This document shows, one piece after another, positions 5,435 to 22,892 of a DNA stretch of 64,000 nt. How positions within the stretch are numbered: the stretch's first letter is position 1; the number at the start of each line of letters is the position of its first letter. A program made the position numbers and the translations under genes. Source of the stretch: Methylophilus sp. TWE2 (GTDB lineage Bacteria; Pseudomonadota; Gammaproteobacteria; Burkholderiales; Methylophilaceae); assembly GCF_001183865.1 (NCBI RefSeq), contig NZ_CP012020.1, forward strand, positions 1-64,000, in the 5' to 3' direction. The notes beneath the pieces were generated by a model that saw only the letters and a program-made list of their open reading frames with translations, did no database searches and was not told the DNA's origin.

Positions 5435-5460
5435 TTTAATAAAAAAGAAGGTTAATAAGT

Positions 5461-5537: not shown

Positions 5538-5626
5538 AAACAATAACTTAACAAAAAATTTTGTTGAGAAAATAGTCCCGGTGATGTAATCTTCCTGTTC
5601 GAAGATTATTTAATCCGGGATTTTTT

Positions 5627-6031: not shown

Positions 6032-6062
6032 AAGGGGACAAACTTTTCAGCTTGCCCCCTTG
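6031..6062. terminator. Possible stem-loop after the Xre gene
   Basis: The run AAGGGGACAA is nearly complementary to CTTGCCCCCTT about 12 nt further on, giving a GC-rich stem with an imperfection. No T tract follows. It may end the regulator transcript. The rest of 6063-6234 shows no clear structure beyond the leader of tnsA. Confidence 0.3.
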
Positions 6063-6234
6063 GCTTCAGAGTAGTGTCTAAAGACCACAGAACCTTAAGT
6101 ATCTTCTCTGAGCCTTGCGGGCGTCAAGTAGTAAATTCAATTATCACCTCATAAAAAAATTAGGTTTTCACCTGATCAAAGGCTTTTTGCGCCTTAAAAA
6201 TGAGGATGTTCTGACCTAACAGTAAGGACTGACT

Positions 6235-8198: not shown

Positions 8199-8812
8199 CT
8201 ACACCTTTGGAAAAATGGCAGGCGGGGGAGCGTGAGCGGATTATCAAGCATCCGGCCGAACCTGCATTGTTAGAAGTCATTGCTGGCCATCAGGAAACAC
8301 GACGTGTATTTCATTATGGCTTGGAGGTAAATGGGCTGCATTACAACAACGACCATTTACAAAAACTTCGTCGGCAGTATGGGGAGGAGCTCAAAGTCGA
8401 CTTCAAGTATTACGAAGATGATATGGGTTATATCCACGTCTTCGATCCTTACGAAAAGCTTTACTTCAAGGTACATGCCATACATTTTGAATATGCTAAT
8501 GGTTTGAGGCTGGTGCAACATCAATCCATTCCCAGTGCTTTGAGAGAGCAGCAAAAAGACCCTCATAACAGAGAACTCCTGCTTCAAAACAAACAGGAGC
8601 TACAGCAAATTGTGACGTCAGCGATTCACCATAACAAAATGGGGAAACGAAAACGGCAAGCTGTCTTGCGAGGTAAGGACAGCCGATTGCCAAAAGCGGA
8701 AGTATTCACTTTTCTGGAAGAGTCTTTTAACGAGGAGGTTACTGAGGAAATCGACTTACCAGATTTCGAGATAGGTGAGCGTAAAAGCAATCAGAGAGGG
8801 GAGGCCGAATGA
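8195..8812 (+). CDS. TnsB C-terminal (beta-barrel and TnsC-interacting) part
   Basis: A 205-residue ORF that continues TnsB in the -1 frame. It begins MTTPLEKWQAG, the (T/S)P-x-x-x-W motif found where Mu/TnsB transposases enter the C-terminal beta-barrel domain. It continues through HYGLEVNGLHYNN and the FKYYEDDMGYIHVFDP segment typical of that domain. The charged tail (about 130-205) would hold the TnsA/TnsC contact region. An open frame also exists from 8150, but the ATG at 8195 has a strong AGGGGG and excludes residues that duplicate the upstream frame. The stop overlaps the tnsC ATG (ATGA). No such stand-alone gene is known to me in Tn7; the split is either functional or a lesion. Confidence 0.75.
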   Translation: MTTPLEKWQAGERERIIKHPAEPALLEVIAGHQETRRVFHYGLEVNGLHYNNDHLQKLRRQYGEELKVDFKYYEDDMGYIHVFDPYEKLYFKVHAIHFEYANGLRLVQHQSIPSALREQQKDPHNRELLLQNKQELQQIVTSAIHHNKMGKRKRQAVLRGKDSRLPKAEVFTFLEESFNEEVTEEIDLPDFEIGERKSNQRGEAE

Positions 8813-9807
8813 TTTCATCCTCTAAAAACCATCTGCGCAACGCTGTAACGCGTTTTTCTATTCGAAATAGGATCATCTCCTACCCGAGATTCAAAGAAGC
8901 GCTGGAGCTCATTACACGACTACATATGCGGTCATTAAATACAGACCACCATGGAGGTTTACTGATTACCGGTTTATCGGGTGCAGGAAAGAGCACGATC
9001 AGGAATGAATATGAAGGGCGATATCCGAGAAGGGATCTTGGTGAAATCACAGTCATTCCAGTTTTGACGGTAGATACGCCAGCCGGGCCGACCGTAAAAA
9101 ACCTTGCGGAGTCCATTCTTGTTGCGCTCGGTGATCCCATGAGTCACCAGGGATCTGCAGAACATAAAACGCACCGTATTTATTATTTCCTCAAGCTCTG
9201 CAAAGTGGAATTATTACTGATTGATGAGTTTCAACACTTTGTGGAGCATGCGAAGCGCAATGAAACTTTGCGGGTAACGGATTGGCTTAAGAATCTGATT
9301 AACCAGGCACGCATTCCAGTGGTGTTATTTGGTTTACCCAATAGCGAGGAAATTCTCAGGTTAAACGTGCAATTGGCCAGACGGTTTTCTGCGAGGTATT
9401 ACCTGCGGCCTTTCAGCATTTATGACGAGCAAGAGGTGAGGGAATACCGCGGGGTGCTTAAGGTTATTGAGAATGCGCTCCCTTTAACCACAGTGTCTTT
9501 GAGTAGTCCGGTAATGGCAAAGCGGTTCTATTTCGCCACCTATGGTCTGATTGACTACATCGGCAAAATTGTGGACGGTGCAGTGCTATTGGCATTGCTA
9601 GAGAACAGCCCAACCATAAAGGAAAAGCATTATGCGGATGCTTTTAAGGAAGAGGTGTGGCGAGATGTAGCTGAGAAGCTAAATCCGTTTTCCAACAACT
9701 CTAAGCTGAGGCCACTCGTCAAAGTCGGTGAGCCTTTTGAGCGAATGACCGATAGTCTTGTGATGAAGACACATAACGATGTATTGAAAGAACAGGCGGG
9801 GTTGTAG
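8809..9807 (+). CDS. tnsC: TnsC-like AAA+ transposition regulator (TniB family)
   Basis: TnsC is the ATP-dependent matchmaker that polymerises on target DNA, recruits TnsA/TnsB and provides target immunity. The 332-residue protein has Walker A GLSGAGKST (about 55-63) and Walker B LLLIDEFQHF (about 134-143). An Asn-containing sensor region follows (VVLFGLPNSEEI) and an arginine-rich LARRFSARYYLRPF stretch resembles the TniB/TnsC sensor and arginine-finger area. At 332 residues it is shorter than TnsC of Tn7 itself and closer to TniB. ATGA overlap with the preceding ORF and a 2-nt gap to tniQ indicate one transcript. Confidence 0.9.
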   Translation: MISSSKNHLRNAVTRFSIRNRIISYPRFKEALELITRLHMRSLNTDHHGGLLITGLSGAGKSTIRNEYEGRYPRRDLGEITVIPVLTVDTPAGPTVKNLAESILVALGDPMSHQGSAEHKTHRIYYFLKLCKVELLLIDEFQHFVEHAKRNETLRVTDWLKNLINQARIPVVLFGLPNSEEILRLNVQLARRFSARYYLRPFSIYDEQEVREYRGVLKVIENALPLTTVSLSSPVMAKRFYFATYGLIDYIGKIVDGAVLLALLENSPTIKEKHYADAFKEEVWRDVAEKLNPFSNNSKLRPLVKVGEPFERMTDSLVMKTHNDVLKEQAGL

Positions 9808-9809
9808 CT

Positions 9810-11630
9810 ATGCCAGGTACTTTGATATTTCGCCCTCAACCATATGGGAATGAGGGGCTAAATGGGTATCTGCTTCGACTGGCAGACGGCAATCGCATCG
9901 CTCAAATTAAAAGTCTTTGGAAAGAAGTTGGTGGGGTTCAGGCTGGATTAGAAAAGCTTCTGGGAAATCCCAACATTGTTGGGAATACACGCCTCTTTAG
10001 ACAAAGTGATCAAAAGGGTAATCGACCCATCTGGAATAGCAGTACGAGTCGCTTTTGTCCTGACTGTCTCCGGACATTGAATTATTGGAAACAAGATTGG
10101 GAGCTATCCCTAATGTCAGCGTGCCCTGTACATCGTTGCTTACTAGTTGAAGTATGCTCAAATTGCCAGCGTACTCTTAATTGGAGAAGAAAAAGCCTGC
10201 TACATTGCCAATGCGGTAGTGATTTGAGGCACATGAGTACGGAGCCAGCTGATGATAAAGAGATCGAGCTAGCACAAACACTATCAAACAAATTGCATGG
10301 CCAGGATTCACAAATTTTGAATCTGCAGCCATTAAATTTAAAGCAACTCCACTCCCTATTGGTCACATTAGGAGTCTATGCAAATCCAGAACGACGTATT
10401 GATTTAAGAAACCAGAGTATTAACTCTCAAAGCAGTGCTCGGTCGCTTATTCTTACTGCTAGTAAAGTGCTTTTTAACTGGCCTGATAGTTTTCATCAGA
10501 TGTTAGATCAGATTCAGAAGGTGTCTGAGAAAAAAAACACCGCCCGCTTGGGAAAGCGTTTCGGAAAGTTTTACGAATATCTCTATACCAATTATAAGGG
10601 ACCTGAGTTTGGGTTCTTGATGCATGAGTTCGAGAATTATCTTGAAAATAACTGGAAACATGCAATAGCTGCCAGAAACAAACGTTTATCCAGGCGACTA
10701 AGGAGTGGACACATCTGGGTTCCAGTCCATACCATGGCGGTAGAGCTCAATGTCAGTAGAAAGGCCATTTCATCACTTATCGAAACGGGGGAGATTGATA
10801 GTAGCCGCGTGAGAACAACCATGGGGAGGGAGGTGATTTGTATCAACCGTCTTCAACGCGAATTGATACGTAGCCTCATTCTTGATCGAGTAGATCTTAA
10901 AATGGCTGCTGAAATGCTTGGACTGCAAGAGAATAGAGTCTGCCAGCTATATGAGCATCACCTTTTAGGTAAGGTAATCCGCGCTAAAGAGAACGCAAGC
11001 GGACGCTGGCAACTATCCAGAAGCTCGCTTGAGCAGATTCTGATACTCGGTGCCAATTTGCCCGAGGCTGCCTCAGATGGTGATTTGATCGGGTTAAGAC
11101 ATCTGCTGCACTATGTCCTAAATAAGCCTTTTTTGTTTCCAAGACTTCTTATGTCGGTCATGAAAAAGGAAATTCTGCCGATTTCAGTTTGTAAACAAGA
11201 GCGAGGTCTTAGCGCTTGGCAATTTGAGCGTTCACATTTTAAACATTGGCATATCGAGCAGTTGAAAGGATCACGCAAAGGTGCTTTCACAATTCCAGAG
11301 GCTGCTAAGTATCTCAAAATCAAGCAAGAGGTGGCTTATCACCTAGTAGGTTCGGGTTATATAAAATGCGTGATGGAGGAGGATTCGCAGCTAAGGCTAG
11401 TGACTTTATCCAATTTGGAAGACTTCAAGCGCAACTACGTTTTTGGAGTCGAGCTAAGCAAGCAGTTAAGTATCAGCCCAAAACATCTCTGTGAGCTACT
11501 TGAGCACAATAATATATGGCCCATTAGTGGCCACGGAGTAGATGGAGGCCGACAAATTATCTACCGGAGAGATCTTGTACTTCAAAGAGCAATGAAGGAT
11601 TTAGGGGAAATAATACCAGTGCGCAATTAA
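9810..11630 (+). CDS. tniQ: TniQ/TnsD-type target-site selector
   Basis: TniQ-family proteins choose the target and load TnsC; TnsD members bind a specific chromosomal site. The 606-residue protein starts with the TniQ domain (PQPYGNEGLNGYLLRLADGN). It has zinc-ligand clusters CPDC (about 83), CPVH (about 104), CSNC (about 116) and CQCG (about 133). The long C-terminal half contains several helix-turn-helix-like stretches (HTMAVELNVSRKAISSLIET; FTIPEAAKYLKIKQEVAYHL; LSKQLSISPKHLCELLEHN), as expected of a sequence-specific TnsD. Given the insertion site, the likely target is the 3' end of gyrB; this is inferred. Confidence 0.88.
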   Translation: MPGTLIFRPQPYGNEGLNGYLLRLADGNRIAQIKSLWKEVGGVQAGLEKLLGNPNIVGNTRLFRQSDQKGNRPIWNSSTSRFCPDCLRTLNYWKQDWELSLMSACPVHRCLLVEVCSNCQRTLNWRRKSLLHCQCGSDLRHMSTEPADDKEIELAQTLSNKLHGQDSQILNLQPLNLKQLHSLLVTLGVYANPERRIDLRNQSINSQSSARSLILTASKVLFNWPDSFHQMLDQIQKVSEKKNTARLGKRFGKFYEYLYTNYKGPEFGFLMHEFENYLENNWKHAIAARNKRLSRRLRSGHIWVPVHTMAVELNVSRKAISSLIETGEIDSSRVRTTMGREVICINRLQRELIRSLILDRVDLKMAAEMLGLQENRVCQLYEHHLLGKVIRAKENASGRWQLSRSSLEQILILGANLPEAASDGDLIGLRHLLHYVLNKPFLFPRLLMSVMKKEILPISVCKQERGLSAWQFERSHFKHWHIEQLKGSRKGAFTIPEAAKYLKIKQEVAYHLVGSGYIKCVMEEDSQLRLVTLSNLEDFKRNYVFGVELSKQLSISPKHLCELLEHNNIWPISGHGVDGGRQIIYRRDLVLQRAMKDLGEIIPVRN

Positions 11631-11692
11631 CTGAGACTCGGATTTATTTATCCCATGAGAAACACTCATTCTGAAGAACGAGAAGGATATAT

Positions 11693-12118
11693 ATGGACCA
11701 AGAACAACATCCACAAGAACTAGTGCATTTAAGAAGCTTGCTTATCAGGAGATATATTTCGCGTACGGTCTCCGTGAGTCGTATCCGGCAAAAAAGTTTG
11801 AGCAACATAGTACGCTGGCGCTCCCAAGGAAGTGATTTCAAGATTTGGGATGAGTGGGTGAAGTTATTGATGGGAGGTAGCGACCAGCTTGTAATTGATG
11901 TGTTGACTAACGATGTTATGGGGAGACAGCGGGAATTGCACCGAGCCCCTGTGTATGTCGGTCTTATCAATCCGCAAATTAGGCAGTATATATTTTCCCG
12001 TCCACTGACGGATCTACCAACGTTGGAAGATCTGAAGAGGTTCGATGAGATTCAGCAAAAATTTCTTCAATTAGGTCAAAGTAAGCTGGTTTGCCAAATG
12101 CACCTCCCCTTGCCTTAG
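11693..12118 (+). CDS. Uncharacterised 141-residue protein downstream of tniQ
   Basis: I do not recognise this family. The product is basic at the N-terminus (LIRRYISRTVSVSRIRQKSL) and then has WRSQGSDFKIWDEWVKLLMGG, with alternating tryptophan and charged residues, and a C-terminal helical segment (LEDLKRFDEIQQKFLQLG). No signal peptide or membrane span is visible. GAAGGA lies ahead of the ATG at a good distance. It is co-oriented with tniQ, 62 nt downstream, and could be an accessory transposition gene or the first cargo gene. Translation is fairly credible from the ribosome-binding site; function is unknown. Confidence 0.55.
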   Translation: MDQEQHPQELVHLRSLLIRRYISRTVSVSRIRQKSLSNIVRWRSQGSDFKIWDEWVKLLMGGSDQLVIDVLTNDVMGRQRELHRAPVYVGLINPQIRQYIFSRPLTDLPTLEDLKRFDEIQQKFLQLGQSKLVCQMHLPLP

Positions 12119-12234
12119 TGTGCAGTGGAGGCGGGCGTGATCGATAGTAGAGCATGAAACGAGCATTTTTGATTTTATATGATAGCCGGACAGATCCCCC
12201 TACCATGCATTAGACGCTGGTAGGGTTAATCGAG

Positions 12235-12546
12235 TTGGATGGAGTAGCTTGGGCGTTAGCTCATCAACAATTTCGTGAGTTACATGTAAAACAAGACTCC
12301 TACTCTGCCGGTTATTCTTCCATGGAGCTTAACAGAAGTAGTGATTTCCAGGAGAGAATAGAAAATTATCTCGAGCGGTCGTCATACCATGTATTCGATG
12401 GTGTTAGGGCTAAACGTGCTGGGTGGATGGCTTGGGAGACTGCTCATCAAAAATGGCTTCAGGAGAAAATCAGAATTAAAAATAATGTTATGAATTTACT
12501 GCTTAAGTTTTTGATATTTAAGGTGAATATTGGCCTACCTTCGTGA
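12235..12546 (+). CDS. Small hypothetical protein with a repeated W-x-x-AHQ motif
   Basis: A 103-residue ORF starting at TTG after TAGGG. Two related stretches are seen: VAWALAHQQFRELHV near the N-terminus and MAWETAHQKWLQEK about 70 residues later. Short proteins with repeated AW-x-A-x-Q motifs are common on integrative elements and phages but have no assigned role. An alternative ATG at 12322 has no visible ribosome-binding site. The C-terminal hydrophobic stretch (NLLLKFLIFKVNIGL) may be an unstructured read-out rather than a real membrane span. Low confidence that it is expressed. Confidence 0.4.
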   Translation: MDGVAWALAHQQFRELHVKQDSYSAGYSSMELNRSSDFQERIENYLERSSYHVFDGVRAKRAGWMAWETAHQKWLQEKIRIKNNVMNLLLKFLIFKVNIGLPS

Positions 12547-12577
12547 CATAACTATATGCCAAATAAAAATCGATTTC

Positions 12578-12606
12578 TGCTAACATTAAGACCGAATAAA
12601 TATAAT
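12578..12606 (+). promoter_or_regulatory. Candidate promoter of the methylase operon
   Basis: A consensus -10 TATAAT lies at 12601-12606 with a weak -35 (TGCTAA) 17 bp upstream. The predicted start would leave a leader of about 11 nt before the methylase ATG at 12624. The region is very AT-rich. Confidence 0.4.
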
Positions 12607-12623
12607 AAAGTAATCAATTTGCG

Positions 12624-13817
12624 ATGAGTAATAACCCCTTAAAATTTGCGAGTCTTTTTTCAGGATGCGGTGGTTTTGATCTTGGCTTTATTGAGCAAGG
12701 GTTTAAACCAGTTGGTGCTTATGACTCTGATTCGGATGCAGTTGAAAATTTTAAAGCTAATATTAGTAATGAGGTTTATAAAGTTGACCTCAATGATGGA
12801 GTTCCTAATAAGGAAGCCATCAAAGGTGTTGATGTACTGGTGGCAGGTCCTCCTTGCCAAGGTTTTTCGACGGCAGGAAAAAGAAGGTTAGATGATGAGC
12901 GTAATCATTTGTTGACTCTAACGGGTCATTTAGCAAAAGAAATTAAACCTAAAGTTTTAGTTGTTGAAAATGTCGCTGGTGCATTATCTGGCTTACATTC
13001 ACGTTATTGGAATGAGCTAGATGAGACCATGAGGTCAGCTGGTTATAAAACCAACACAATCAAATGCCAAACCACTGATATTGGTATGGCACAAATTCGC
13101 AAACGAATATTATTCTTTGCATGGTCTACCGATCGCACTGTTGATTTTGATTTTCCAATTAAATCAGCGACAGATTTACGGTCAATTTTGGTAGGTGTTA
13201 ACGAACAAAAAAACCATAATCCACGCATACTTGATTTAGAAAGTAAGGAGTGGAAAATTGCCAGAAAAATTAAACAAGGACAAAAACTCTCTAATGTACG
13301 AGGTGGTGATAACGCAATTGCCACTTGGGATATTCCAGATGTATTTGGAGTTGTCTCTGATGAAGAAAGAACTGTACTGGAGTTGTTAAGGCGTCTTAGA
13401 AGGCAAGAAAGAACGCGTGATCACGGAGATGCAGATCCTGTATCCATTGCACGTTTAGAAGCTGCTTTAGGTGAGCCCTTTCATCAGCTTATAGTTTCGT
13501 TGTTAGATAAAGGGTATCTCAGACGAGTTGATGACTGTATAGATTTAGTCGGTACATTTAATGGTAAATTTCGCCGACTTGCGTGGGACAAGCCAAGTTG
13601 TACAGTTGATACAAGATTTGGCTCACCACGATATTTTTTGCATCCTTCACAGGCGAGGGGATTTACCGTAAGAGAAGCTGCAAGGATCCAGGGCTTCAGT
13701 GATGAGTATATATTCCATGGTAATGAAAAGAGCCATTATCGCCTTATTGGAAATGCTGTCCCGCCTCCACTTGCTGCGATGGCAGCGAGGTTAGCTAAGC
13801 GTTTGCTAGGTACTTAA
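12624..13817 (+). CDS. C5-cytosine DNA methyltransferase of the cargo operon
   Basis: Transfers methyl groups from S-adenosylmethionine to cytosine C5. Motifs appear in canonical order in 397 residues: I FSGCGGFDLGF (about 12-22), IV with catalytic Cys in PPCQGFS (about 76-82), VI ENV (about 114), VIII QIRKR (about 156-160), IX near VREAARIQGF, X RLIGNAVPPPLA (about 373-384). Between VIII and IX lies an unusual segment (about 246-305) with two helices and a KGYLRRVDDCIDL turn that looks like a winged helix, in the usual target-recognition area. No matching restriction enzyme gene is adjacent. The next gene starts 2 nt after the stop, so the methylase belongs to a four-gene unit and may mark self DNA for it. 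Confidence 0.9.
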   Translation: MSNNPLKFASLFSGCGGFDLGFIEQGFKPVGAYDSDSDAVENFKANISNEVYKVDLNDGVPNKEAIKGVDVLVAGPPCQGFSTAGKRRLDDERNHLLTLTGHLAKEIKPKVLVVENVAGALSGLHSRYWNELDETMRSAGYKTNTIKCQTTDIGMAQIRKRILFFAWSTDRTVDFDFPIKSATDLRSILVGVNEQKNHNPRILDLESKEWKIARKIKQGQKLSNVRGGDNAIATWDIPDVFGVVSDEERTVLELLRRLRRQERTRDHGDADPVSIARLEAALGEPFHQLIVSLLDKGYLRRVDDCIDLVGTFNGKFRRLAWDKPSCTVDTRFGSPRYFLHPSQARGFTVREAARIQGFSDEYIFHGNEKSHYRLIGNAVPPPLAAMAARLAKRLLGT

Positions 13818-13819
13818 TA

Positions 13820-14875
13820 ATGACGCTGAATGAATTACAGCAGTTAGTACACAAATGGGATTCTCAAAACTTGACTGCATCTGCAATTGCAGATGCGGCT
13901 TACACGATTATTTACGATAAGCTTGACCATTTTGCAAATAACGAATGGCGCCAATATTTGCCAGCAGAGCATCCAAGTTTAAACGCTAGTTATATGGAGC
14001 GCTTGGCAGCTTGGATTGGCAATTTATCAGATGAGGAGGATCAAAAACTCTTTTTAAAATATGCATTGCATATTAGTTTTTTTTCACATGAAGATTTTAC
14101 TGCCCTTTATCGAACTGCATTTGATCGGGAAATAACACAATGGGTGGCTGACCAAATTGGAGCGAAGTTAATACCTCATGGTAGCCAAGGATTTCGAAGT
14201 GAGGTTCACTCAGCATTAAATGAACGCACTTGGTTTTGTCCTGTTACTGATAGCATGGACATAAATGAATTTTACAAAGTAAACCATTTACGAGGAATTG
14301 GGCATCGCCCAGGTTTCGCAACTCTAAAAATGTTAGCTTTAGATTTTCCTGTCCCTGATCCTTTACTGATGAATAATTTAATTCAGTATATGGATAACCC
14401 AAGTTTAGATCCTCGAGACCCTTTGCCATCGCTAGAGCGGTTGGTCCTGTTAGAGGATATAGTCGGATCCGGTTCTCAATGTTTAGAAGTCGTTGAATGG
14501 GTATTAAATAATCTTGGAAGGCCGGTCTTATTTGTTCCTCTAATATTATGCCCCAATGGTGCAACTGTTTTGAATAGTCTAGAACAGCGATCTCAAGGAC
14601 GGCTAACAGTACGCCCGGTAATTGAACTTCGTCGCGGAGATTTGCTTGGGGGAGAGCGACAAGGTGAGTCTGGATGGGCAATAACGGACCAACTTGAAAA
14701 CCTTATAAGCCGGTTTACAGGTAATTTTAAATACGAAGATTACGGATATAGGAATACCGGCTGCTCATTGGCAACCTTTTCTAATACCCCTGACAATACT
14801 ATTCCAATGATCCATGATAATGGGCGGTCCAACACTTGGGCACCTTTATTCCCAAGGGTTCTTCGAGATACATGA
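13820..14875 (+). CDS. Phosphoribosyltransferase-like protein of the conflict operon
   Basis: A 351-residue soluble protein. Residues about 210-220 read LLEDIVGSGSQ after a hydrophobic strand. This matches the PRPP-binding loop of type I phosphoribosyltransferases (two acidic residues, then a T/S-G-hydroxyl turn), with Glu-Asp instead of Asp-Asp. Upstream of it is a helical region (about 1-110) with many Trp/Phe residues and a NHLRGIGHRPGF segment; downstream is a long extension ending YRNTGCSLATFSNTPDNT. PRTase-like proteins beside ORC/Cdc6-like ATPases have been predicted in prokaryotic conflict systems; I know of no experimental function. Substrate is unknown. Spacing to the neighbours is 2 nt and an ATGA overlap. 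Confidence 0.7.
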   Translation: MTLNELQQLVHKWDSQNLTASAIADAAYTIIYDKLDHFANNEWRQYLPAEHPSLNASYMERLAAWIGNLSDEEDQKLFLKYALHISFFSHEDFTALYRTAFDREITQWVADQIGAKLIPHGSQGFRSEVHSALNERTWFCPVTDSMDINEFYKVNHLRGIGHRPGFATLKMLALDFPVPDPLLMNNLIQYMDNPSLDPRDPLPSLERLVLLEDIVGSGSQCLEVVEWVLNNLGRPVLFVPLILCPNGATVLNSLEQRSQGRLTVRPVIELRRGDLLGGERQGESGWAITDQLENLISRFTGNFKYEDYGYRNTGCSLATFSNTPDNTIPMIHDNGRSNTWAPLFPRVLRDT

Positions 14876-16974
14876 ATATAACAATCAATCCATTTCAGCA
14901 GCTTTATTTCTCCGATGACACTCAGTCAGAGGATCATTTTGTCAGATTATTTAGCACGGAAGTTTTACAGACAGCCATACACCCAATATTTCAGGGTGGG
15001 AATGTAGTTCTTAGTGGTACACAAGGTTGCGGCAAAACTATGATTTTGAACCTTCTGCGACCAGAAACTCGAATTGCATATTTTAAGTGTGGACAAGAGT
15101 TTCCTGTAAATCCGCAGATGCGAGATTTCATTTCCGCTGGGGTAAATCTTACTCGTAGTCGGATCACAGATTTAGTGCAAGTTACATTACATCGTGGGGA
15201 CGATGCTGATGAACGTGAGTTGCCATTATATTTTGCTGATTTTTTTAATTATTTGGTTGTAGAAGATCTAATAAAGTCAGTAGAAACTATCGGAAATAAT
15301 CCTGATGTCTTTGACGGAATTGTTAACTTATCTGAACCAGATAAGTTTGTAAAAATTTTGGTTCAACAGGACTGTTGGTTTGGTTATTTCGATGATGTTG
15401 TAAATCTAGACCAACTTAAAAACAGAGTTAATGAGCGTATAAAATTATATAGGCTTTGGGTGAATGGAAATCTTGAAGATGGTCTTCCTCCAGATATTCT
15501 CCGAAGAAGTAAAACCAATATAGGTGAGCCAATTGCTAGAACCGCGGAATGTCTTAGGCAAAGTGGAGTAATACCGAAGAATGTGCCGGTACTTATTCGA
15601 GTTGATCAAATTGAAGAAATGCATCGTGCCTTTACTGAAAGACAACGAATTCTCCTTCTTTCTTTCCGTAAAATATTAAATCGCGCTTTTGCGTCAAGAG
15701 ACGCTAGAGTTCATTACAGAGCTGGAACTCGACGTTATGGCTGGGATAATCAAGAGTTCTTGGGGGTATGGGGTAGCGAAGCCAAGCTTGAGAATAGACG
15801 TGATTACAATTTCATCGATATGGATGAGGAGTTATTCAAAAGGGGGGAGGTTGTAGGAAATTCCATTTTTGAAAGATTTTCAATTGATGCATTTCAAAGG
15901 CGAGTAGTTTTCTATTTTGAAGACGAGGTTAATTTAAACCCCCAATTAGCCAAATCTATATTTGGTAAACATCCGTTTGCTGAGCAAAGGATTTCTTCAT
16001 TAAATTCTAAGGCAGAAAATAGCCAGATTGATCGTGCTTTGGGGTTGGATCTACTGGCTGATGGAGGAGCATGGTCAGAAGAATGGCGCACTTTTTTACG
16101 AAATATGTATTTGAGTGGCACAGATGGAATGTTAGATGCCGTACTTGCTGCCGCATGGGGTAGGCAAACTGGTGGAGGAGGCTTAAGGCGTCAACACAGA
16201 GAGTCTCCGCCACCGCAAGATACACCTTGGCGAGAGCGCAAATGGTGGCGAAAAGAGCGACTGGATCAAGCTGTATTACAACTTATGACCAGATCTCAGC
16301 AACGATTCATGTGGTGGGGATTCAAAGATATTCTAACTTTGAGTGGGGGAAATATTACGGTATTCCTACATATTTGTCACAGAGTTTGGGATGGCTTTCT
16401 GAAAAATGAATATAGTCTTCCCGAAAATAAGCGGACCGATCTTTTGAATGGTGGAGTAATTAATCAAAACATTCAATCATCAGGAATTCTTTTTGCAAGT
16501 AATGAATGGTTCAATAAACTTCAAGAGGAGCCAGGTGGAAATGCTAGAAAAAGTTTCGTGCAAGTATTAGGTGAGAGGTTAAACGATAGCATGATGCGCG
16601 ATTTAAGCATGTCATATCCGGGGGGCAATGGCATTTCAATCGCTCTTTCAGAATACACAGCTGAATCTAAAGATATTGTCAGTTTAAGAAACTTTATGTG
16701 TGAGGCGGTTGCTTATGGAGCATTATTTGAGACCGAGCATGCTTCAAAGTCAAAAGCCGGTGGAAGAAGGGTTAAATTTTATTTAAATCCGATTTTATGC
16801 CCGAGGTTTCAACTTCCAGAAGCTAGAACGAAAGAGCCTTACTATCTAAAAATTAGTGAGTTATTTGAGTTGTTAAAGAAGGCGGAAGTAACATTAGAAA
16901 ATCCAAATGTCAGACCTACTAAATCGATGAATAATTTATCGCTTTTTCCAGAATTTGATGGCGACAAGCTATGA
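14872..16974 (+). CDS. ORC/Cdc6-like AAA+ ATPase of the conflict operon
   Basis: A 700-residue P-loop ATPase. Walker A is GTQGCGKT (about 49-56), and a Walker B-like strand VPVLIRVDQIEEM lies at about 238-248 with Asp and Glu residues. A sensor-type strand (RVHYRAGTRRYG) follows about 40 residues later. The C-terminal half has a helical region with WWGFKDILTLSGGNITVFLHICHRVWDGF, reminiscent of the lid and winged-helix region of ORC/STAND-type ATPases. The frame is open from TTG at 14836, but ATG at 14872 forms an ATGA overlap with the preceding stop and gives the family-like start MNITINPF. Likely the sensor or motor of the four-gene system; this is inferred. Confidence 0.72.
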   Translation: MNITINPFQQLYFSDDTQSEDHFVRLFSTEVLQTAIHPIFQGGNVVLSGTQGCGKTMILNLLRPETRIAYFKCGQEFPVNPQMRDFISAGVNLTRSRITDLVQVTLHRGDDADERELPLYFADFFNYLVVEDLIKSVETIGNNPDVFDGIVNLSEPDKFVKILVQQDCWFGYFDDVVNLDQLKNRVNERIKLYRLWVNGNLEDGLPPDILRRSKTNIGEPIARTAECLRQSGVIPKNVPVLIRVDQIEEMHRAFTERQRILLLSFRKILNRAFASRDARVHYRAGTRRYGWDNQEFLGVWGSEAKLENRRDYNFIDMDEELFKRGEVVGNSIFERFSIDAFQRRVVFYFEDEVNLNPQLAKSIFGKHPFAEQRISSLNSKAENSQIDRALGLDLLADGGAWSEEWRTFLRNMYLSGTDGMLDAVLAAAWGRQTGGGGLRRQHRESPPPQDTPWRERKWWRKERLDQAVLQLMTRSQQRFMWWGFKDILTLSGGNITVFLHICHRVWDGFLKNEYSLPENKRTDLLNGGVINQNIQSSGILFASNEWFNKLQEEPGGNARKSFVQVLGERLNDSMMRDLSMSYPGGNGISIALSEYTAESKDIVSLRNFMCEAVAYGALFETEHASKSKAGGRRVKFYLNPILCPRFQLPEARTKEPYYLKISELFELLKKAEVTLENPNVRPTKSMNNLSLFPEFDGDKL

Positions 16975-17951
16975 CCTATCGTCCTTGGGGTTCCGTAGAG
17001 TGGTCTCTTTCATTAAGCAATCCTAAACAATGGTCATTGATTGGGGCTCTCGGGACCGAAGAGCGTTCTTTAAGTGCTTGGGGATTGTTTAATCAATTTG
17101 GAATTTTAAAAGGACAAAGTTTTGCTGAGATTCTTGATGTAGACTCTGTGAAATACAGACAACTAAATAAGGACTTACTCGCACTCCGACGCGCGGAGTT
17201 TCTTGGTAGTGGTGGTAAGGTTGCAGACATTACTACTTTTGATCTAATGAGTGAGTTATTTAGAATCCGTCAATTCTCTCAAGAAGTTATACAAAAAAAC
17301 TCATCTATCGTATTAGATATAACATCTCTGCCAAAACGTTTTTTTTTCCCTATTTTGGAGGCATTGGTCAAAAGCGCCAATATTCGAGATTTATTAATTA
17401 CTTATACTTGCCCTGATTCTTATGCAAGTGGCGCCCTTTACGAAGATATAGAGCCCTGGAAAACATTGCCAGGTTTTGGTGGTAGGGATAATCCAGATAT
17501 TTGGATTGCTGGTGTAGGTTTCTTAGCTGAAAGCTTAAAACGATATATAGTAGATAATCCAAAAGAAAAAATAAAAGTGTTAGTTCCATTTCCAGCACCC
17601 TTATCTTCTCTAAGACGTACCTGGCAATCGGTGGCTGAACTTGAGCAAGGTAATCCAGAAAATAGAATTGATAAGATTCGAGTGGATACTCTAGATATGT
17701 CAGCGGCCTTTGACCGAATCAGCTCTCTTGCAGGTAAACCTGCAAAAAATATAGCGTTCGCTCCTTTTGGACCTAAACCCACTTCTGCAGCAATGTGCCT
17801 ATATGCATTACAGCAAAAATCTTCAGTCCATTATCCCCAGCCTACCGTATATCATCCCGAATATTCCAAAGGTATCAAGAAAGGGGATCCTAAGATAGCG
17901 GTTTCATCTTATTGGATTAAACACGATGGTGAGTTTCTTTACCATGTATGA
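16971..17951 (+). CDS. Uncharacterised last component of the conflict operon
   Basis: A 326-residue protein that I cannot assign to a named family. It has alternating strands and helices consistent with a Rossmann-like fold: SIVLDITSLPKRFFFPILEAL (about 112-132), DLLITYTCPDSY, and KIKVLVPFPAPLSSL. The hydrophobic-D-[IV]-T-x-x-[PT]-K-[RA] loop after the first strand resembles ligand loops of CARF-type sensor domains, but the match is only topological. No membrane segment. ATGA overlap with the ATPase gene shows it is the fourth gene of the operon. It may be a nucleotide sensor or an effector. Confidence 0.6.
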   Translation: MTYRPWGSVEWSLSLSNPKQWSLIGALGTEERSLSAWGLFNQFGILKGQSFAEILDVDSVKYRQLNKDLLALRRAEFLGSGGKVADITTFDLMSELFRIRQFSQEVIQKNSSIVLDITSLPKRFFFPILEALVKSANIRDLLITYTCPDSYASGALYEDIEPWKTLPGFGGRDNPDIWIAGVGFLAESLKRYIVDNPKEKIKVLVPFPAPLSSLRRTWQSVAELEQGNPENRIDKIRVDTLDMSAAFDRISSLAGKPAKNIAFAPFGPKPTSAAMCLYALQQKSSVHYPQPTVYHPEYSKGIKKGDPKIAVSSYWIKHDGEFLYHV

Positions 17952-18017
17952 TTCGTGAGATATTAAGATTTAATTTCTTCTTCTCAGAGCAAATCAAACC
18001 ATTGAGGTAGCTTTATC

Positions 18018-18584
18018 TCAGTAAGTATATTGCCGAGCAACTCCAGTCATAGACATACGGTATTTCAGCATACTCATGCTTACTCTGAAATCGCTGGCAG
18101 CTATTGTCAAATCTAGTCTTTGTTTCATGATAGAGACTAGAGCCTCTCTTGGCAATAAGAGGCATCCGCTAAGCCAATCCGCCTCATCTTCTTGATCTTT
18201 CTCATATGCTGAAAGCATCAATACCCCTTCAGATGATGCATTCATTTCCTGACTTTGATGATCCAGAATTAAATGAGATAACTCATGCATTAAATCGCTA
18301 GATTGTCTTCCGAGAGAGTGGGATGAGTTGAGAATAACGAGCTTAATGTCTTCAACAATAAGAGTCACAGCGGACCAATCGCTGGCAGTTTTCCCATCGT
18401 TATGCAGCAAGATATTAAGGTGTTCCTGAGTTAATCCAGGAACATCATGAGGGGTCCAAACTTTAATCCCTAAATTTTCGGCAAGAAGTCTCGCATCCAA
18501 TGGGTCGGATGAGCTTAAACCAAGCTCCTGACGTTTATCAGTTGCAAAGCGTTCGCACCAAGATTTGAAGCCCCTCTTAAACAA
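18018..18584 (-). CDS. ImmA/IrrE-family zinc metallopeptidase
   Basis: A 188-residue protein with the zinc-protease motif HELSH in LMHELSHLILDHQS (about 98-111). A downstream acidic segment, DEEADWLSGCLLLPRE, supplies the third ligand region typical of ImmA/IrrE. Members cleave a partner Xre repressor (ImmA/ImmR) or regulate a DNA-damage response (IrrE/DdrO). The start is TTG at 18584, supported by GAAGGA about 6 nt upstream; that ribosome-binding site overlaps the end of the Xre gene, so the pair is translationally coupled. It probably inactivates the adjacent Xre protein and so derepresses the divergent ubiquitin-like operon; the target is inferred. Confidence 0.88.
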   Translation of the reverse strand: MFKRGFKSWCERFATDKRQELGLSSSDPLDARLLAENLGIKVWTPHDVPGLTQEHLNILLHNDGKTASDWSAVTLIVEDIKLVILNSSHSLGRQSSDLMHELSHLILDHQSQEMNASSEGVLMLSAYEKDQEDEADWLSGCLLLPREALVSIMKQRLDLTIAASDFRVSMSMLKYRMSMTGVARQYTY

Positions 18585-18587
18585 GTT

Positions 18588-18920
18588 TTATCCTTCAATA
18601 TTATTATCAGTCAGTATTGCTTTTTGAGCCAAAAGAATCATTTCGCTTAAAGCTTTTGCGCTTGCTGGAGTAATCGCGCTTTCTTTCTTGAAGTGAACTC
18701 TGACTCGAGGGGTGGGTTTGATTTCCGTAAGACCTAAATAGATAGAAGGGTCTTCACCTAACCAAGCGCAAATTTTACTGAAAGTATCGAGGTCTGGAAC
18801 CTTCTTATTTTCAACTCTTGAAAGTGTTGCTGAGCTTACACCTATTTCTTTTGCAGCTTCTCTGACTCCCTTGATACTTCGCTTTCGCAGGATGTTCTCT
18901 GCTAGCAGCTCAATATTCAT
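18588..18920 (-). CDS. Xre-family regulator paired with ImmA
   Basis: A 110-residue DNA-binding protein with a Cro/C1 helix-turn-helix (GVREAAKEIGVSSATLSRVENKKVPD, about 20-45) and a polar C-terminal extension. ATG at 18920 is preferred over the in-frame GTG at 18929, because GGAG lies 9 nt upstream of the ATG but abuts the GTG. It is immediately followed by the metallopeptidase gene and faces the ubiquitin-like operon across a 149-bp gap with overlapping inverted repeats. Such repressor-protease pairs often control integrative-element or defence genes. Repression of both directions is inferred. Confidence 0.88.
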   Translation of the reverse strand: MNIELLAENILRKRSIKGVREAAKEIGVSSATLSRVENKKVPDLDTFSKICAWLGEDPSIYLGLTEIKPTPRVRVHFKKESAITPASAKALSEMILLAQKAILTDNNIEG

Positions 18921-18930
18921 TTTTGGCACT

Positions 18931-19010
18931 CCGTCTCATAAGTAATACAAAAAGTGTTTGACATGTAATACGATGCTGTGCAAAATGCAATCGTCTTACA
19001 TGTGAGACGG
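18931..19010. promoter_or_regulatory. Divergent promoter/operator between xre-immA and the ubiquitin-like operon
   Basis: Two nested inverted repeats span the gap. CCGTCTCATAAGTAA (18931-18945) against TTACATGTGAGACGG (18996-19010) agrees at 13 of 15 positions. ACATGTAATACGAT (18961-18974) against ATCGTCTTACATGT (18990-19003) agrees at 13 of 14. A rightward -35 TTGACA at 18958-18963 overlaps the second repeat, with a weak -10 CAAAAT 17 bp on. Placement fits repression by the adjacent Xre protein. Confidence 0.68.
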
Positions 19011-19069
19011 AAGTATGTTGCAGAAACCATCAATCGTCAAGCTCAATGATGAGCAGAAAGGTAATAGAA

Positions 19070-19246
19070 ATGGCAAAAAACAGGCCAAAAGGTTATGGGC
19101 GTCGTATCGGCGCAGTTAGGGGCCGCTCTCAAATGCAAACTCCATCAGGGCATTGGGTGAAGCGTGATACTGAGACGGGACGTTTTATGGAAATTAAAAC
19201 GTCAGACACAAAACCATTTAAAGGTATACGAAAGGAAAAGAAATGA
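19070..19246 (+). CDS. Small basic protein leading the ubiquitin-like operon
   Basis: A 58-residue, strongly basic protein (start MAKNRPKGYGRRIGAVRG, end GIRKEKK) rich in Gly, Arg and Lys. I recall similar short proteins upstream of bacterial multi-ubiquitin genes, but no function. ATG at 19070 is preferred over those at 19046 and 19049, because AAAGG precedes it and the sequence then starts like the relatives. Its stop overlaps the next gene's ATG (ATGA), so it is tightly coupled to the Ubl-E2 fusion. A substrate, adaptor or nucleic-acid-binding role is possible; nothing in the sequence decides. Confidence 0.65.
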   Translation: MAKNRPKGYGRRIGAVRGRSQMQTPSGHWVKRDTETGRFMEIKTSDTKPFKGIRKEKK

Positions 19247-19944
19247 GCAACGAAAAAGAAGTGATTGATCTGGCTGAATACGCCAAAGCCGACAAACCAG
19301 TCCCAAAAGAGAAACACTACAAGTTCCGTGTGGACAAAACTGAAATCACAGTCTCGCAAGAAACAATTACGGGCCGTGAAATCCTCACCTTGGCAGGTAA
19401 AAATCCTCAGAATTTTATTCTGCAGCAGAAAATTAAAGGTCAGGTAATTCGAATTGGGCTTGATGACATTGTCGATTTGACTGTGCCTGGCGTTGAACGA
19501 TTCATGACGATTCCTAATGAGGTCACAGAGGGTGAGGCACCGACAATGCGAACACAGTTTGAATTGTTACAAGAGGATCTGGAGTATCTTGAATCTTTGG
19601 GGCTGCCATGGGAAACGGTTCAAGATGACGTTCAGACGCGCCGCTTGGTAATCCATGGATTTCCGGTACCTGTTGGCTACAACGTTGATAAGGTCGATGT
19701 TTTTGTTTATCTGCCGCCGAATTATCCAGATGTACAAATCGATATGGCTTACTTTTTGCCAAATTTGGCTCGAAAAGATCAAAAACCAATAGGTGCCTTG
19801 AGTGAAGCAGTCGCAGATGGGCAGACATGGCAACGTTGGTCTCGACATAGAAATGAGTCTAGTAAATGGCGTATCGGTGAAGACAATCTACGCACACATA
19901 TGACATTAGTCAGTGACTGGCTCGAGCAGGAGCTGACGAAATGA
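19243..19944 (+). CDS. Ubiquitin-like (Multi_ubiq) domain fused to an E2-like domain
   Basis: A 233-residue fusion. Residues about 24-92 (KHYKFRVDKTEITVSQETITG, continuing to RFMTIPNE) form a beta-grasp domain of the bacterial multi-ubiquitin type, present as one copy. Residues about 98-233 match the prokaryotic E2 family E: LPPNYPDVQIDMAYFLPNL and the conserved TWQRWSRHRNES-KWR block. No cysteine occurs anywhere in the protein, so a classical thioester-forming E2 active site is absent. The protein ends EQELTK, not in a free Gly-Gly. AAGGA precedes the start. ATGA overlaps on both sides couple it to the neighbours. Family gene neighbourhoods with JAB and E1 domains are established; mechanism here is open. 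Confidence 0.85.
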   Translation: MSNEKEVIDLAEYAKADKPVPKEKHYKFRVDKTEITVSQETITGREILTLAGKNPQNFILQQKIKGQVIRIGLDDIVDLTVPGVERFMTIPNEVTEGEAPTMRTQFELLQEDLEYLESLGLPWETVQDDVQTRRLVIHGFPVPVGYNVDKVDVFVYLPPNYPDVQIDMAYFLPNLARKDQKPIGALSEAVADGQTWQRWSRHRNESSKWRIGEDNLRTHMTLVSDWLEQELTK

Positions 19945-21338
19945 TGACTCACGACCAGGTATCGTTGGCCTTAACGGCTCAACATCACGAGCAATTAAAA
20001 AACCATCTTTACCCGGGCGATGGCAAAGAGGCGGTTGCAATTGGACTTTGTGGCCGCTCCTACCATAAAGGTTTCTCAACATTGCTTGTGCAAGAGATTT
20101 TTCCTATTCCCTATGCATCTTGCACGGTTCGAGAACAAGACAGAGTGACTTGGCGACCAGAGGTTTTAGAAGAGCTGCTTGCCAAAGCCATGAAGCTAAA
20201 TCTCTCTATTGTTAAATTTCACAGTCATCCAGGTGGATTCCGTCAGTTCTCTGATACTGATGACGAATCCGATGTCATGCTGTTTGAATCAGTTTATGGA
20301 TGGCTGGATACTGATTCGCCTCAGGCGAGCGTCATTATATTGCCTAATGGTGAGCTGTTTGGGCGGGCTATTACAAGCAGTGGAATTGGAAACTCGTTAC
20401 GATTAATAAGAGTCGTTGGCGATGATGTTCAGTACTACTTTGATCAGGATGGTGCTGAAGATACCCCTGAGCATGCAACGCGTGTAGTGCAAACTTTTGG
20501 TGAAGGAACCTACCGAATGTTCCGAGAGTTAAGAGCTGGAGTGGTTGGCTGCTCTGGAACGGGTAGCATCATAGTGGAGCAGTTGCTCCGGAACGACATA
20601 GGCACCTTGGTCGCAATTGATCCAAAAGTGGTTGGATCTAAGAATTTAAACAGAATATTGAATAGCACCGATGCTGATGTTCAAAGTAAAAAAAGCAAAG
20701 TTTGCTTGGTTAAGGAAACAGCCGAGAAAATAGGTCTGGGAACAGAGGTTATTCCCTATAAAGCAGATTTGCAGAGTGCGGAAGTAATTCATGCGCTGTC
20801 GCAATGTGATGTCATATTTGGATGTATGGATTCCGTGGATGGCCGTCATCTACTGAATAAATTAGCCAGTTATTACTTAATCCCATTTATAGATATGGGA
20901 GTGCGAATTGACGCAGATGGTAAAGGGGGCATTGATGCAATCAATGGTGCTGTGCACTACATCAAGCCAGGTGGTTCAAGCTTACTTAGCAGGGGTGTTT
21001 ATTCCATGCAGGATTTGGAGGCCGCCTCAATGAAACGACATGCACCAGAGCAATATGCTGAAAGATTAGATGAAGGTTATATCAAAGGGGTGCGTGTTGA
21101 TCAGCCTGCCGTGATATCAGTCAACATGCAGATCGCTTCGACAGCATTCAATGAGTTTTTGGCAAGAGTTCATCCTTATCGCATTGAGCCAAACCGTTAC
21201 TATGCTCAACGCAGAATAGTCATTAGTGATCCGGCAGCAAGCTTGGATATCGAAGAAAATAATCCCTGCCCAGTGTTTGCAAGATATCTCGCTAAGGGTG
21301 ATCAAAAACCATTATTAGGAATATTAGGCCTAGCATGA
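19941..21338 (+). CDS. JAB protease fused to an E1-like (ThiF) enzyme
   Basis: A 465-residue two-domain protein. The N-terminal JAB/JAMM domain has Glu in VQEIFPIP (about 40) and the metal motif HSHPGGFRQFSDTDD (about 94-108), the E...HxHP...SxxD signature of deubiquitinase-like metalloproteases. The C-terminal ThiF/E1 domain has the nucleotide loop GCSGTGS (about 203), then DPKVVGSKNLNRI with the conserved acidic and Arg residues. A cysteine in FGCMDSVDGRHLLNK lies near the position of E1-type motifs. The protein should process and adenylate the Ubl. It overlaps the upstream and downstream genes (ATGA). Confidence 0.9.
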   Translation: MMTHDQVSLALTAQHHEQLKNHLYPGDGKEAVAIGLCGRSYHKGFSTLLVQEIFPIPYASCTVREQDRVTWRPEVLEELLAKAMKLNLSIVKFHSHPGGFRQFSDTDDESDVMLFESVYGWLDTDSPQASVIILPNGELFGRAITSSGIGNSLRLIRVVGDDVQYYFDQDGAEDTPEHATRVVQTFGEGTYRMFRELRAGVVGCSGTGSIIVEQLLRNDIGTLVAIDPKVVGSKNLNRILNSTDADVQSKKSKVCLVKETAEKIGLGTEVIPYKADLQSAEVIHALSQCDVIFGCMDSVDGRHLLNKLASYYLIPFIDMGVRIDADGKGGIDAINGAVHYIKPGGSSLLSRGVYSMQDLEAASMKRHAPEQYAERLDEGYIKGVRVDQPAVISVNMQIASTAFNEFLARVHPYRIEPNRYYAQRRIVISDPAASLDIEENNPCPVFARYLAKGDQKPLLGILGLA

Positions 21339-21679
21339 TGAAAAGCTATCTACGTGCAATTTGGGGGTGGCTGCTTACACTTTTTGGCCAATCCCCTTTA
21401 TATCGACTTGTACTGTTGGATGAATTACCGGAAACGCCTAAGCCACAGAAAGTATATGTGATTGGCGATGCTGATACACATTGGATGGCAGCAATGATTT
21501 GTCCATGTGGCTGTGGTGATCTGATCCAATTAGCCACAGATCCAACAGGGCGACCAAGATGGGATGTAACCCAAGAAAAAGATGGTATGGCGAGTCTACA
21601 CCCTTCAGTACACCGTAAAGTTAGATGCAAAAGTCATTTTTTTGTAAAACGTGGCCGAATAATTTGGTGTAACGATTAA
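21335..21679 (+). CDS. DUF6527-family cysteine-rich protein
   Basis: A 114-residue protein with a short hydrophobic N-terminus (AIWGWLLTLFG, probably part of the fold or an anchor). Metal-ligand-like residues follow: CPCGCG near residue 65, then HRKVRCKSHFF and a C-terminal WC. The arrangement fits the DUF6527 family, whose genes sit in bacterial ubiquitin-like operons; I recall recent reports linking this family to Ubl processing, but cannot confirm here. It could instead act as a zinc-binding E3-like factor. ATGA overlap with the JAB-E1 gene makes it the last tightly coupled gene of the operon. Confidence 0.78.
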   Translation: MMKSYLRAIWGWLLTLFGQSPLYRLVLLDELPETPKPQKVYVIGDADTHWMAAMICPCGCGDLIQLATDPTGRPRWDVTQEKDGMASLHPSVHRKVRCKSHFFVKRGRIIWCND

Positions 21680-21718
21680 ATAACAATCAAAAAGCAATTT
21701 AAAGAAAGGTTTCAGTAA

Positions 21719-22525
21719 ATGGCGTCATTAGCTAGAACATTAAATAATCCATATCCGTTTTTAATTGTGGCACTTACAGCTGCCTTTTTCTTTTTAATGG
21801 CTTGGTATCGAGCAGGAACGATATTAAGCATATTAGAAAGAGTCTGGAGGCTTATTGTTGGAAAAGGGGAAATAACCGATCCCAAGTTATTAAAGTTCAA
21901 TAAGCAAATGAAAGATATTGAGCTATTTAATTTTGTATATGGCCTTAAAGTGCAATCCATTGAAAAAATGCATCAAGTAATTGAATGGATAGAGCAGCAT
22001 AAATTAGATTATGTCGATGTTAGGCGTGCAAAAAAATGGATTGATATCAAAACGCTGGATGTTCAAAGTCCAGAAAAAAGTGATACCAGATGGACTTTTG
22101 TAGCCCTGATATTTTGTATATCTCTTATGGAATTAAGTAGTTTTGCTATGGGATCAAAGTCTGCGTTATTGCAGTTTAAAGAGTCAGGAGTTTGGTTTTT
22201 CCTAGATCAAAATGAAGCCCGTGGACTTCGAGGCAATTGGACGTTAAAAGCCACGCAATGTGATGTTTCAAAGAAGGGTGTGCGCTTAGTAGCAGAACTG
22301 ACGGAGGATGAAAGCAACGTAATATGTGAGTCCTTCAAAGATAAAGGCTTAGCAGATTACCTGCAAAAAACAGTTCGGACGCAAAGGATTTTTTCTGGAT
22401 ACATCTTTTTAATTGCGTTGGGCTTTATTTATTGGATAGTAAAACATAGACTAGGCATTCTTGCTGCAAAAAGAATAAAAGAGACTTTGGGTAGCAATAA
22501 ATTGAACTGTGTAAATGAAGCTTGA
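21719..22525 (+). CDS. Predicted membrane protein at the end of the cargo
   Basis: A 268-residue protein with an N-terminal membrane span (FLIVALTAAFFFLMAWY, about 14-30), a second near 125-142 (FVALIFCISLMELSSFAM), a soluble domain between about 145 and 225, and a third span near the C-terminus (YIFLIALGFIYWIV). The cytoplasmic loop (about 35-115) is charged. AAAGG lies upstream of the ATG. It starts 39 nt after the DUF6527 gene and may be the membrane effector or partner of that operon, or independent cargo. I do not recognise the family with certainty. Confidence 0.65.
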   Translation: MASLARTLNNPYPFLIVALTAAFFFLMAWYRAGTILSILERVWRLIVGKGEITDPKLLKFNKQMKDIELFNFVYGLKVQSIEKMHQVIEWIEQHKLDYVDVRRAKKWIDIKTLDVQSPEKSDTRWTFVALIFCISLMELSSFAMGSKSALLQFKESGVWFFLDQNEARGLRGNWTLKATQCDVSKKGVRLVAELTEDESNVICESFKDKGLADYLQKTVRTQRIFSGYIFLIALGFIYWIVKHRLGILAAKRIKETLGSNKLNCVNEA

Positions 22526-22570
22526 GTATCAAGGTTATGAGACTTTCTATTACGCTGTATTATTACAACT

Positions 22571-22756
22571 ATGAAAACCGTTCAGACAGTAAAACTTAGT
22601 GAGGCAGAAATCCTTCGCATTAAACGCGAAGGGCAGGCTAAATCACGCCAATTAGTCAAAGATGGCATTCGAACCCAGGAAAGCATGTTCTTGATTCCTC
22701 CTGCAGTTGCAAAAGCATCTAAGGTTCGTTACAGAGGTTTCTCAACAATAGGGTAG
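22571..22756 (+). CDS. Small hypothetical protein next to the transposon end
   Basis: A 61-residue ORF (MKTVQTVKLSEAEILRIKREG at the start) with a helical, charged N-terminal half and no membrane span. It ends exactly where the TnsB-type repeats of the far end begin. No ribosome-binding site is visible ahead of the ATG. It might be a small DNA-binding or antitoxin-like protein. Reality of the gene is uncertain. Confidence 0.4.
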   Translation: MKTVQTVKLSEAEILRIKREGQAKSRQLVKDGIRTQESMFLIPPAVAKASKVRYRGFSTIG

Positions 22757-22892
22757 TGAAGTTTCATTAATACTGCATTTTAGTAGGATTTTTTCACTTA
22801 ATATTTTTGTTTCCAGAATAGGATCACGCACTTAATTTGAAATGTTGTTGATTTCATTAGGTGTGAGTTTTCACTTATTTTGAGAACCTACA
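22757..22892 (-). repeat. Transposon end, cargo side, with TnsB-type repeats
   Basis: Read from 22892 leftward on the minus strand, the end begins TGTAGGTTCTCAAAATAAG followed by TGAAAAC. It matches the other end at about 23 of 27 positions. Further minus-strand copies of an AATTAAGTG or ATTAAGTGAAAAA core follow near 22828-22842 and 22793-22805, and a weaker ATTAATGAAAC near 22763-22775. Three to four sites here against two at the other end gives the usual asymmetric Tn7-type ends. Confidence 0.82.

Follow-up and report, generated by a model that had tools for sequence, protein, structure and literature searches.

The window analyzed in this study, the whole stretch of 64,000 nucleotides at positions 1 to 64,000 of NZ_CP012020.1 (Methylophilus sp. 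TWE2, forward strand), contains a four-gene operon of ~5.3 kb that is carried by a Tn7-like element. The features are as follows.

Gene A, 12624..13817, + strand: C5-cytosine DNA methyltransferase, 397 aa (PF00145)
Gene B, 13820..14875, + strand: PRTase-CE protein, 351 aa, proposed nucleotide-targeting effector (PF24390, PADLOC PRTase_III-A)
Gene C, 14872..16974, + strand: ORC/Cdc6-like AAA+ ATPase, 700 aa (PF24389)
Gene D, 16971..17951, + strand: stand-alone tandem-CARF protein (CARF6), 326 aa, proposed nucleotide sensor (PADLOC, predicted fold)
Tn7-like element, 5375..22892, no strand: carries the operon, with inverted ends and transposition genes
TnsA-like, TnsB, TniB/TnsC and TniQ genes, 6235-11630 (Pfam)

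A sequence-only reading of this DNA had described four open reading frames joined by a 2-nt gap and two ATGA overlaps, and the coordinates and junctions are as it claimed: A/B, B/C and C/D measure +2, -4 and -4 nt, both of the latter being ATGA overlaps. The operon is also AT-rich, as had been proposed, with a GC content of 0.40; the values for the remaining element and for the window's backbone portion are 0.427 and 0.509.

The Tn7-like setting, another proposal of that reading, was borne out by the presence of TnsABC-type and TniQ genes between inverted ends, the TnsA-like gene scoring 24.4 bits, just under the Pfam cut-off of 26.5 by 2 bits. The terminal inverted repeats at 5375 and 22892 are identical at 24/30 positions, and no other inverted copy of this 30-mer within the window comes closer than 12 mismatches. 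An 8-bp direct repeat, ATGATTTA, lies outside both ends; Tn7-like target duplications are usually 5 bp. The left end is situated 7 nt past the gyrB stop codon, close to dnaA, and the 3' end of gyrB is to our knowledge an unusual target. The TnsB region (6855-8812) consists of two overlapping ORFs in different frames, an rve half and a Mu-C half, which could reflect a frameshift or else a split, whether natural or programmed. Two small ORFs (11693-12546) that lie between TniQ and the methylase gene lack matches, the first in Pfam and the second in PADLOC.

Downstream of gene D, the element carries genes for multi-ubiquitin plus Prok-E2_E, JAB plus ThiF (E1-JAB) and DUF6527 proteins at 19243-21679, as assigned by Pfam; this is a bacterial ubiquitin-like conjugation operon and a second likely defence cargo. 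An HTH and ImmA/IrrE-type M78 protease pair (18018-18929, minus strand) is located between the two operons, and a DUF6216 protein (21719-22525) gave a weak, sub-cut-off match to SieB. Within the element, a search for direct repeats of >=22 nt (seed 14) detected no CRISPR array, and Rfam gave no match to a structured RNA at the gathering score. The host genome is a single contig of 3,079,044 bases.

Gene A matched PF00145 at 7e-58 in Pfam and contains the C5 methylase motifs PPCQG, ENV, QxRKR and GNAVPP; its nearest solved structures include M.HaeIII and M.HhaI. The methylase had been said to lack a restriction partner. Consistently, when the locus was considered as a Type II restriction-modification system, no restriction nuclease was present among the Pfam matches of the element's scanned ORFs; two small ORFs, 11693-12118 (searched in Pfam only) and 12235-12546 (in PADLOC only), gave no match.

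The assignments of genes B and C as PRTase-like and ORC-like were upheld by Pfam scores above cut-off. Gene B matched PF24390 (PRTase-CE) with 89.5 bits against a cut-off of 27, and PADLOC PRTase_III-A with 54.7 bits. It carries the loop LLEDIVGSGSQ and a C-terminal NTPDN..P motif; in an alignment of 23 rows W65, D213, G309 and P324 are invariant, while S217, Q220, N322, T323, D325 and N326 are conserved in >=90%. Gene B is thus a PRTase-CE protein that retains its signature motifs. Proteins of the PRTase-CE family are predicted to hydrolyse nucleotides or to use PRPP. A PDB sequence search with the profiles of B, C and D returned nothing below E 0.09; rows 2 and 3 for the B profile were uracil phosphoribosyltransferases (E 0.15 and 0.65).

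Gene C matched PF24389 (ORC-CDC6-like) with 112.5 bits (cut-off 27) over residues 36-654, and had no match in PADLOC. It has Walker A (GTQGCGKT) and Walker B (LIRVDQIEE) motifs, and G52, G54, K55 and D245 are invariant in 26 close relatives and in 12/12 divergent rows. There is a candidate C-terminal winged helix at ~558-640, and the top PDB matches of a low-confidence AF2 model are BrxC, followed by ORC subunits. By profile, gene C is an ORC/Cdc6-like P-loop ATPase.

The product of gene D had been called a protein of unknown fold, a description that can be replaced. Nothing in Pfam exceeded the cut-off, and a candidate assignment to the dTDP-sugar epimerases was rejected, as all such matches were sub-threshold. 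The PADLOC CARF6 model PDLC01923 gave 468.8 bits. Foldseek's own ranking placed unrelated Rossmann-type and other folds first, with Csm6 19th and Can1 48th; in a second look with VIA-align, the predicted fold was found to contain the CARF Rossmann fold. On account of the VIA-align and PADLOC results together, gene D is, by profile and predicted fold, a tandem CARF protein, with two CARF domains in succession and no effector fusion. K269 is conserved in 14/14 rows. We propose that gene D serves as a nucleotide sensor.

The four genes constitute a conserved unit. Scanning 84,980 species genomes with the gene C alignment yielded four confirmed loci (L012-L015), in a Nitrospirae, a Betaproteobacteria, a Hydrogenophilales and a Rhodocyclales MAG. 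The order A-B-C-D is kept in 4/4, adjacent genes being spaced by -4 to +2 nt, and in L014 both A and D are partial because the locus is cut at both contig ends. A methylase homologue is accordingly present in 4/4 of the other loci (the partial one being in L014) and in 5/5 of the window's own subfamily. In the protein database we obtained 470 relatives of D, 338 of B and 268 of C, the last from a scoring limited to the 7,995 candidates with the most words in common. Among the best 120 of each, apparent same-contig pairs numbered 50 for B/C, 54 for C/D and 40 for B/D, with all three on 27, as compared to ~1 expected by chance after offsets of 1-100; a shared contig was assumed from identical contig size, which is a proxy and not proof. 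The divergences of B, C and D also correlate on 26 contigs with unique sizes, the host included (Mantel r 0.40 for B/C, 0.56 for B/D and 0.62 for C/D); of 2000 permutations, 1, 0 and 0, respectively, were as high. The co-occurrence of the four genes elsewhere, on which the sequence-only reading depended, is therefore seen both as the same order in four other loci and as apparent same-contig pairs in excess of chance.

The subfamily is rare: of 369 genomes in the class, the host alone had it. Gene C searched in plasmids and phages, and gene D in plasmids, gave no match, and a search of viral contigs with query A1 gave 89 pattern matches with 0 confirmed. At E 1e-8, the ORFs that flank the operon in L012, L013 and L015 show no similarity to those on either side of it in the window. 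The sole likeness among the flanks of these three loci is that all include two-component-type proteins (at 8554-16471, 2-2103 and 16638-19462, respectively), response-regulator and kinase-like, at 27-42% identity; these are possibly just a common family.

To place the operon among its wider relatives, we counted 18 ORC loci: the window, L012-L015, L017-L019 from plasmids, L029-L036, L070 and L074. The plasmid loci are 3 of 10 plasmid records matched, the other 7 being left out. L070 and L074 were found via the PRTase, and their ORC protein was recognised solely by a profile made here. Also left out of the count were G574, whose coordinates equal those of G720, and the weak PF24389 matches L004-L011. 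Among these, L004 scored over the cut-off with 44.1 bits across 45 residues and adjoins a tRNA synthetase, and L005 scored 27.2 bits (cut-off 27) and adjoins an N6 methylase; in both, PRTase and CARF6 were absent from the 3.1-3.3 kb examined, which ends just past the ATPase gene.

CARF6 is present in 18/18 of the counted loci. The position of gene B is held by PRTase-CE in 14, by HD-CE in two (L030, L032), by a metallophosphoesterase in one (L031) and by an unassigned gene in one (L035). The modification gene varies too. A C5 methylase occurs in 8/18 (the window, L012-L015, L030, L032, L035) and an N6/N4 methylase lies upstream in 4/18 (L017, L018, L019, L036); in L029 an N6-type methylase ORF (9912-11030) lies directly downstream of CARF6, a gene order unlike that of the window. 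A recognised methylase was absent, by similarity to nine methylases and by motif scan, in the other 5/18 (L031, L033, L034, L070, L074). In L035 a single 1239-aa protein (5494-9213) joins a kinase-like domain, an ORC-type ATPase and CARF6, and is flanked by two C5 methylase genes on the other strand.

Several neighbours of these loci deserve record. On rhizobial plasmids, a gene for ThyX (flavin thymidylate synthase) adjoins the N6/N4 methylase in L018 (4715-5626) and is nearby in L019 (10581-11534), which may tie the module to the chemistry of pyrimidines or DNA bases. HAD-type genes lie upstream of PRTase-ORC-CARF6 in L033 (9032-10975), L034 (8887-11993) and L070 (3014-4945), with PfkB also in L034 and a weak SIS match also in L070; they occupy the position of the methylase in other loci and may point to sugar- or nucleotide-phosphate chemistry. 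A Bradyrhizobium plasmid island (L019, 1194-17266) brings TIR, PRTase-ORC-CARF6, WYL and a multi-ubiquitin/ThiF operon into close proximity, and in the nearness of the last to PRTase-ORC-CARF6 it resembles the cargo pairing of the window.

In a sample of 398 genomes of the phylum, ORC-CDC6-like proteins occurred in at least 9 genomes (E 1e-10), and one CARF6 model matched at least 5, four of them beside ORC and the fifth (G751) at 19 bits. Both frequencies are lower bounds, since the ORC search missed L070 and L074 and the CARF6 model missed L031 and L033-L035. PRTase-CE was found in 18 genomes of the sample. Six of these loci adjoin ORC plus CARF6 and nine (L066-L069, L071-L073, L075, L076) adjoin a reverse transcriptase (RVT_1); the remaining three (L063-L065) have neighbours outside the Pfam scan. 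Two of the PRTases next to a reverse transcriptase were compared with PADLOC PRTase_III-A and scored 284 and 398 bits.

We also considered, and rejected, the idea that the operon works together with a type III CRISPR or CBASS system encoded at another site in the host. The host genome gave no match to TIGR02578 (Csm1) or PF18182 (mCpol), and 0 matches to PF18144 (SMODS), the model for a CBASS CD-NTase. TIGR02577 (Cmr2) had one match below cut-off (24.4 as compared to 79.4 bits). Three ORFs matched PF22335 (Cas10 palm), two of them over cut-off; as an E. coli control also exceeded the cut-off and GGDEL/GGEEF motifs are present, these ORFs appear to be GGDEF-type cyclases. Thus the Csm1, Cmr2 and palm models, which made up the test for Cas10, identified no Cas10 for which the operon could be an accessory.

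The sequence-only reading had suggested an undescribed system, which at the level of families does not hold: PRTase-CE, ORC-CDC6-like, HD-CE and CARF6 are already in Pfam or PADLOC, and the component families are not new because these databases and earlier work name them. It had also pointed only to computational predictions for PRTase-like and ORC-like domains, in agreement with what Nicastro et al. 2023 and Makarova et al. 2020 are reported to contain. The former, from which we take the Pfam names of PF24390, PF24391 and PF24389 to stem, reportedly described the nucleotide-targeting effectors Calcineurin-CE, HD-CE and PRTase-CE, and the latter is said to provide the classification of CARF domains. 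Genes B and C belong to these PRTase-CE/HD-CE/ORC-CDC6-like systems by Pfam cut-off, and the loci opened here show the same exchange of PRTase-CE and HD-CE in one slot. Gene D belongs to the CARF6 family (PADLOC PDLC01910-PDLC01925) through its score with PDLC01923. One PADLOC model of that family is already named CARF_STK_AAA; the model name gives neither system nor ligand, and the ORC, PRTase and methylase partners come from the present survey.

Other known systems share parts of the operon. Unlike Can1 and other ancillary CARF proteins of type III CRISPR, gene D lacks a fused nuclease and resides in a host without a Csm1 match. BREX likewise combines a DNA methylase with an ATPase of the ORC/Cdc6 clade and no recognised nuclease, but the operon differs in having a C5 rather than an adenine methylase, in having CARF and PRTase proteins, and in the absence of PglZ and BrxX/PglX from the Pfam matches of the element's scanned ORFs. 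With type III-A retrons it has the PRTase family in common, yet no RVT_1 was found among those ORFs. In the literature, neither the CARF6-ORC-effector architecture nor an experimental test of the B, C and D families in such a module was found among the matches listed. An excerpt of PMC12839542 describes BrxC and BrxD as ORC/Cdc6 ATPases and BrxB as an inactive homologue, and according to one of PMC10853773, conflict systems draw heavily on the ORC/Cdc6 family. A PRTase is named among validated systems in a figure legend of PMC13092281, and an excerpt of PMC12548924 describes the PRTase as the effector of type III-A retrons. Nicastro 2023 is cited for a dNTPase system in an excerpt of PMC12265719 and appears in the reference entries of PMC12704722; PMC8195603, also in excerpt, is among prior work.

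Taken with the gene content described above, we consider that the operon is a CRISPR-independent, BREX-like nucleotide-sensing conflict module, probably antiphage, on a Tn7-like element, with a probability of roughly 0.55. Both the role in defence and each step of the mechanism are inferred. Gene A would methylate host DNA and so mark self; gene C, assembling on DNA in the manner of BrxC and ORC, would tell incoming DNA apart from resident DNA; gene D would bind a small nucleotide between its two CARF domains, and this ligand would set or release the ORC switch; and the activated complex would unleash gene B, which may break the glycosidic bond of free nucleotides (or use up PRPP), such that phage replication or the cell is stopped. 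Self-marking by methylation, as first suggested, fits the subfamily, with its methylase in every locus, but does not extend to the class as a whole since 5/18 ORC loci are without a recognised methylase. Of the two outputs first suggested, the PRTase fits better than the last protein, which has a sensor-type fold. The strongest support for gene B as output is its replacement by HD-CE or a phosphoesterase here together with its pairing with reverse transcriptase elsewhere, and the replacements suggest, from gene content, that slot B is an exchangeable nucleotide-attacking output. The defence-like neighbours (multi-ubiquitin/E2/E1-JAB) are part of the reason that the antiphage reading is favoured.

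The slot-B enzyme could instead act as an off-switch, degrading or modifying in the manner of a ring nuclease a messenger that gene D senses, with the ORC protein as executor. CARF systems are often paired with signal-degrading enzymes, and every slot-B enzyme that was recognised is expected to have nucleotides or phosphoesters as its substrates. We regard this as unlikely: gene C has no recognised toxic domain besides its ATPase, PRTase-CE adjoins a reverse transcriptase in 9/18 genomes, and the retron excerpt cited above (PMC12548924) makes the PRTase an effector.

The likeness to BREX raises the further alternative that the methylase and ORC ATPase block replication of unmethylated DNA without any attack on nucleotides, the PRTase and CARF proteins being regulators. 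The lack of PglZ and of an adenine methylase among the element's scanned ORFs, and of a recognised methylase in 5/18 ORC loci, makes such exclusion decidedly unlikely. It is more doubtful still that the PRTase makes a ribosyl-phosphate-type nucleotide that gene D senses and in response to which gene C acts on DNA. As Csm1, SMODS and mCpol are unmatched in the host, a signal would have to come from elsewhere, and HAD-type genes stand beside the PRTase in 3/18 loci, with a PfkB-type gene in one; however, in another 3/18 the PRTase is replaced by HD-CE or metallophosphoesterase, hydrolases rather than likely synthases. Least probable is a role outside defence, with the module maintaining or regulating the transposon or the host's nucleotide metabolism; the operon's status as transposon cargo lends itself to this, but against it stand its rare, cross-phylum distribution, flanks in L012, L013 and L015 unlike those of the window at E 1e-8, and partner families that are those of PADLOC conflict systems. 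A housekeeping role was rejected on account of the rare and patchy distribution.

Beyond the conflict module proposed for this locus, a broader view of the class can be offered tentatively, and we hold it to be possible rather than probable: an immune switch of general use that needs neither CRISPR nor CBASS, in which a tandem CARF sensor clamped to a DNA-bound ORC/Cdc6 ATPase would drive plug-in nucleotide-destroying outputs (PRTase, HD, phosphoesterase, kinase) alongside plug-in self-marking. Its nucleotide signal would come from no known messenger synthase, and might perhaps be a PRTase product or arise from phage DNA turnover.

In type III CRISPR, CARF domains are known to receive the cyclic oligoadenylate signal. 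The CARF protein of this operon is coupled to a methylase and an ORC-type ATPase, and Csm1, SMODS and mCpol are all unmatched in the host genome. The operon would join three themes, namely BREX-like modification with an ORC ATPase, CARF signalling and nucleotide-attacking effectors; at ~5.3 kb it is small enough to be cloned whole, and it makes testable the question of which ligand CARF6 proteins bind.
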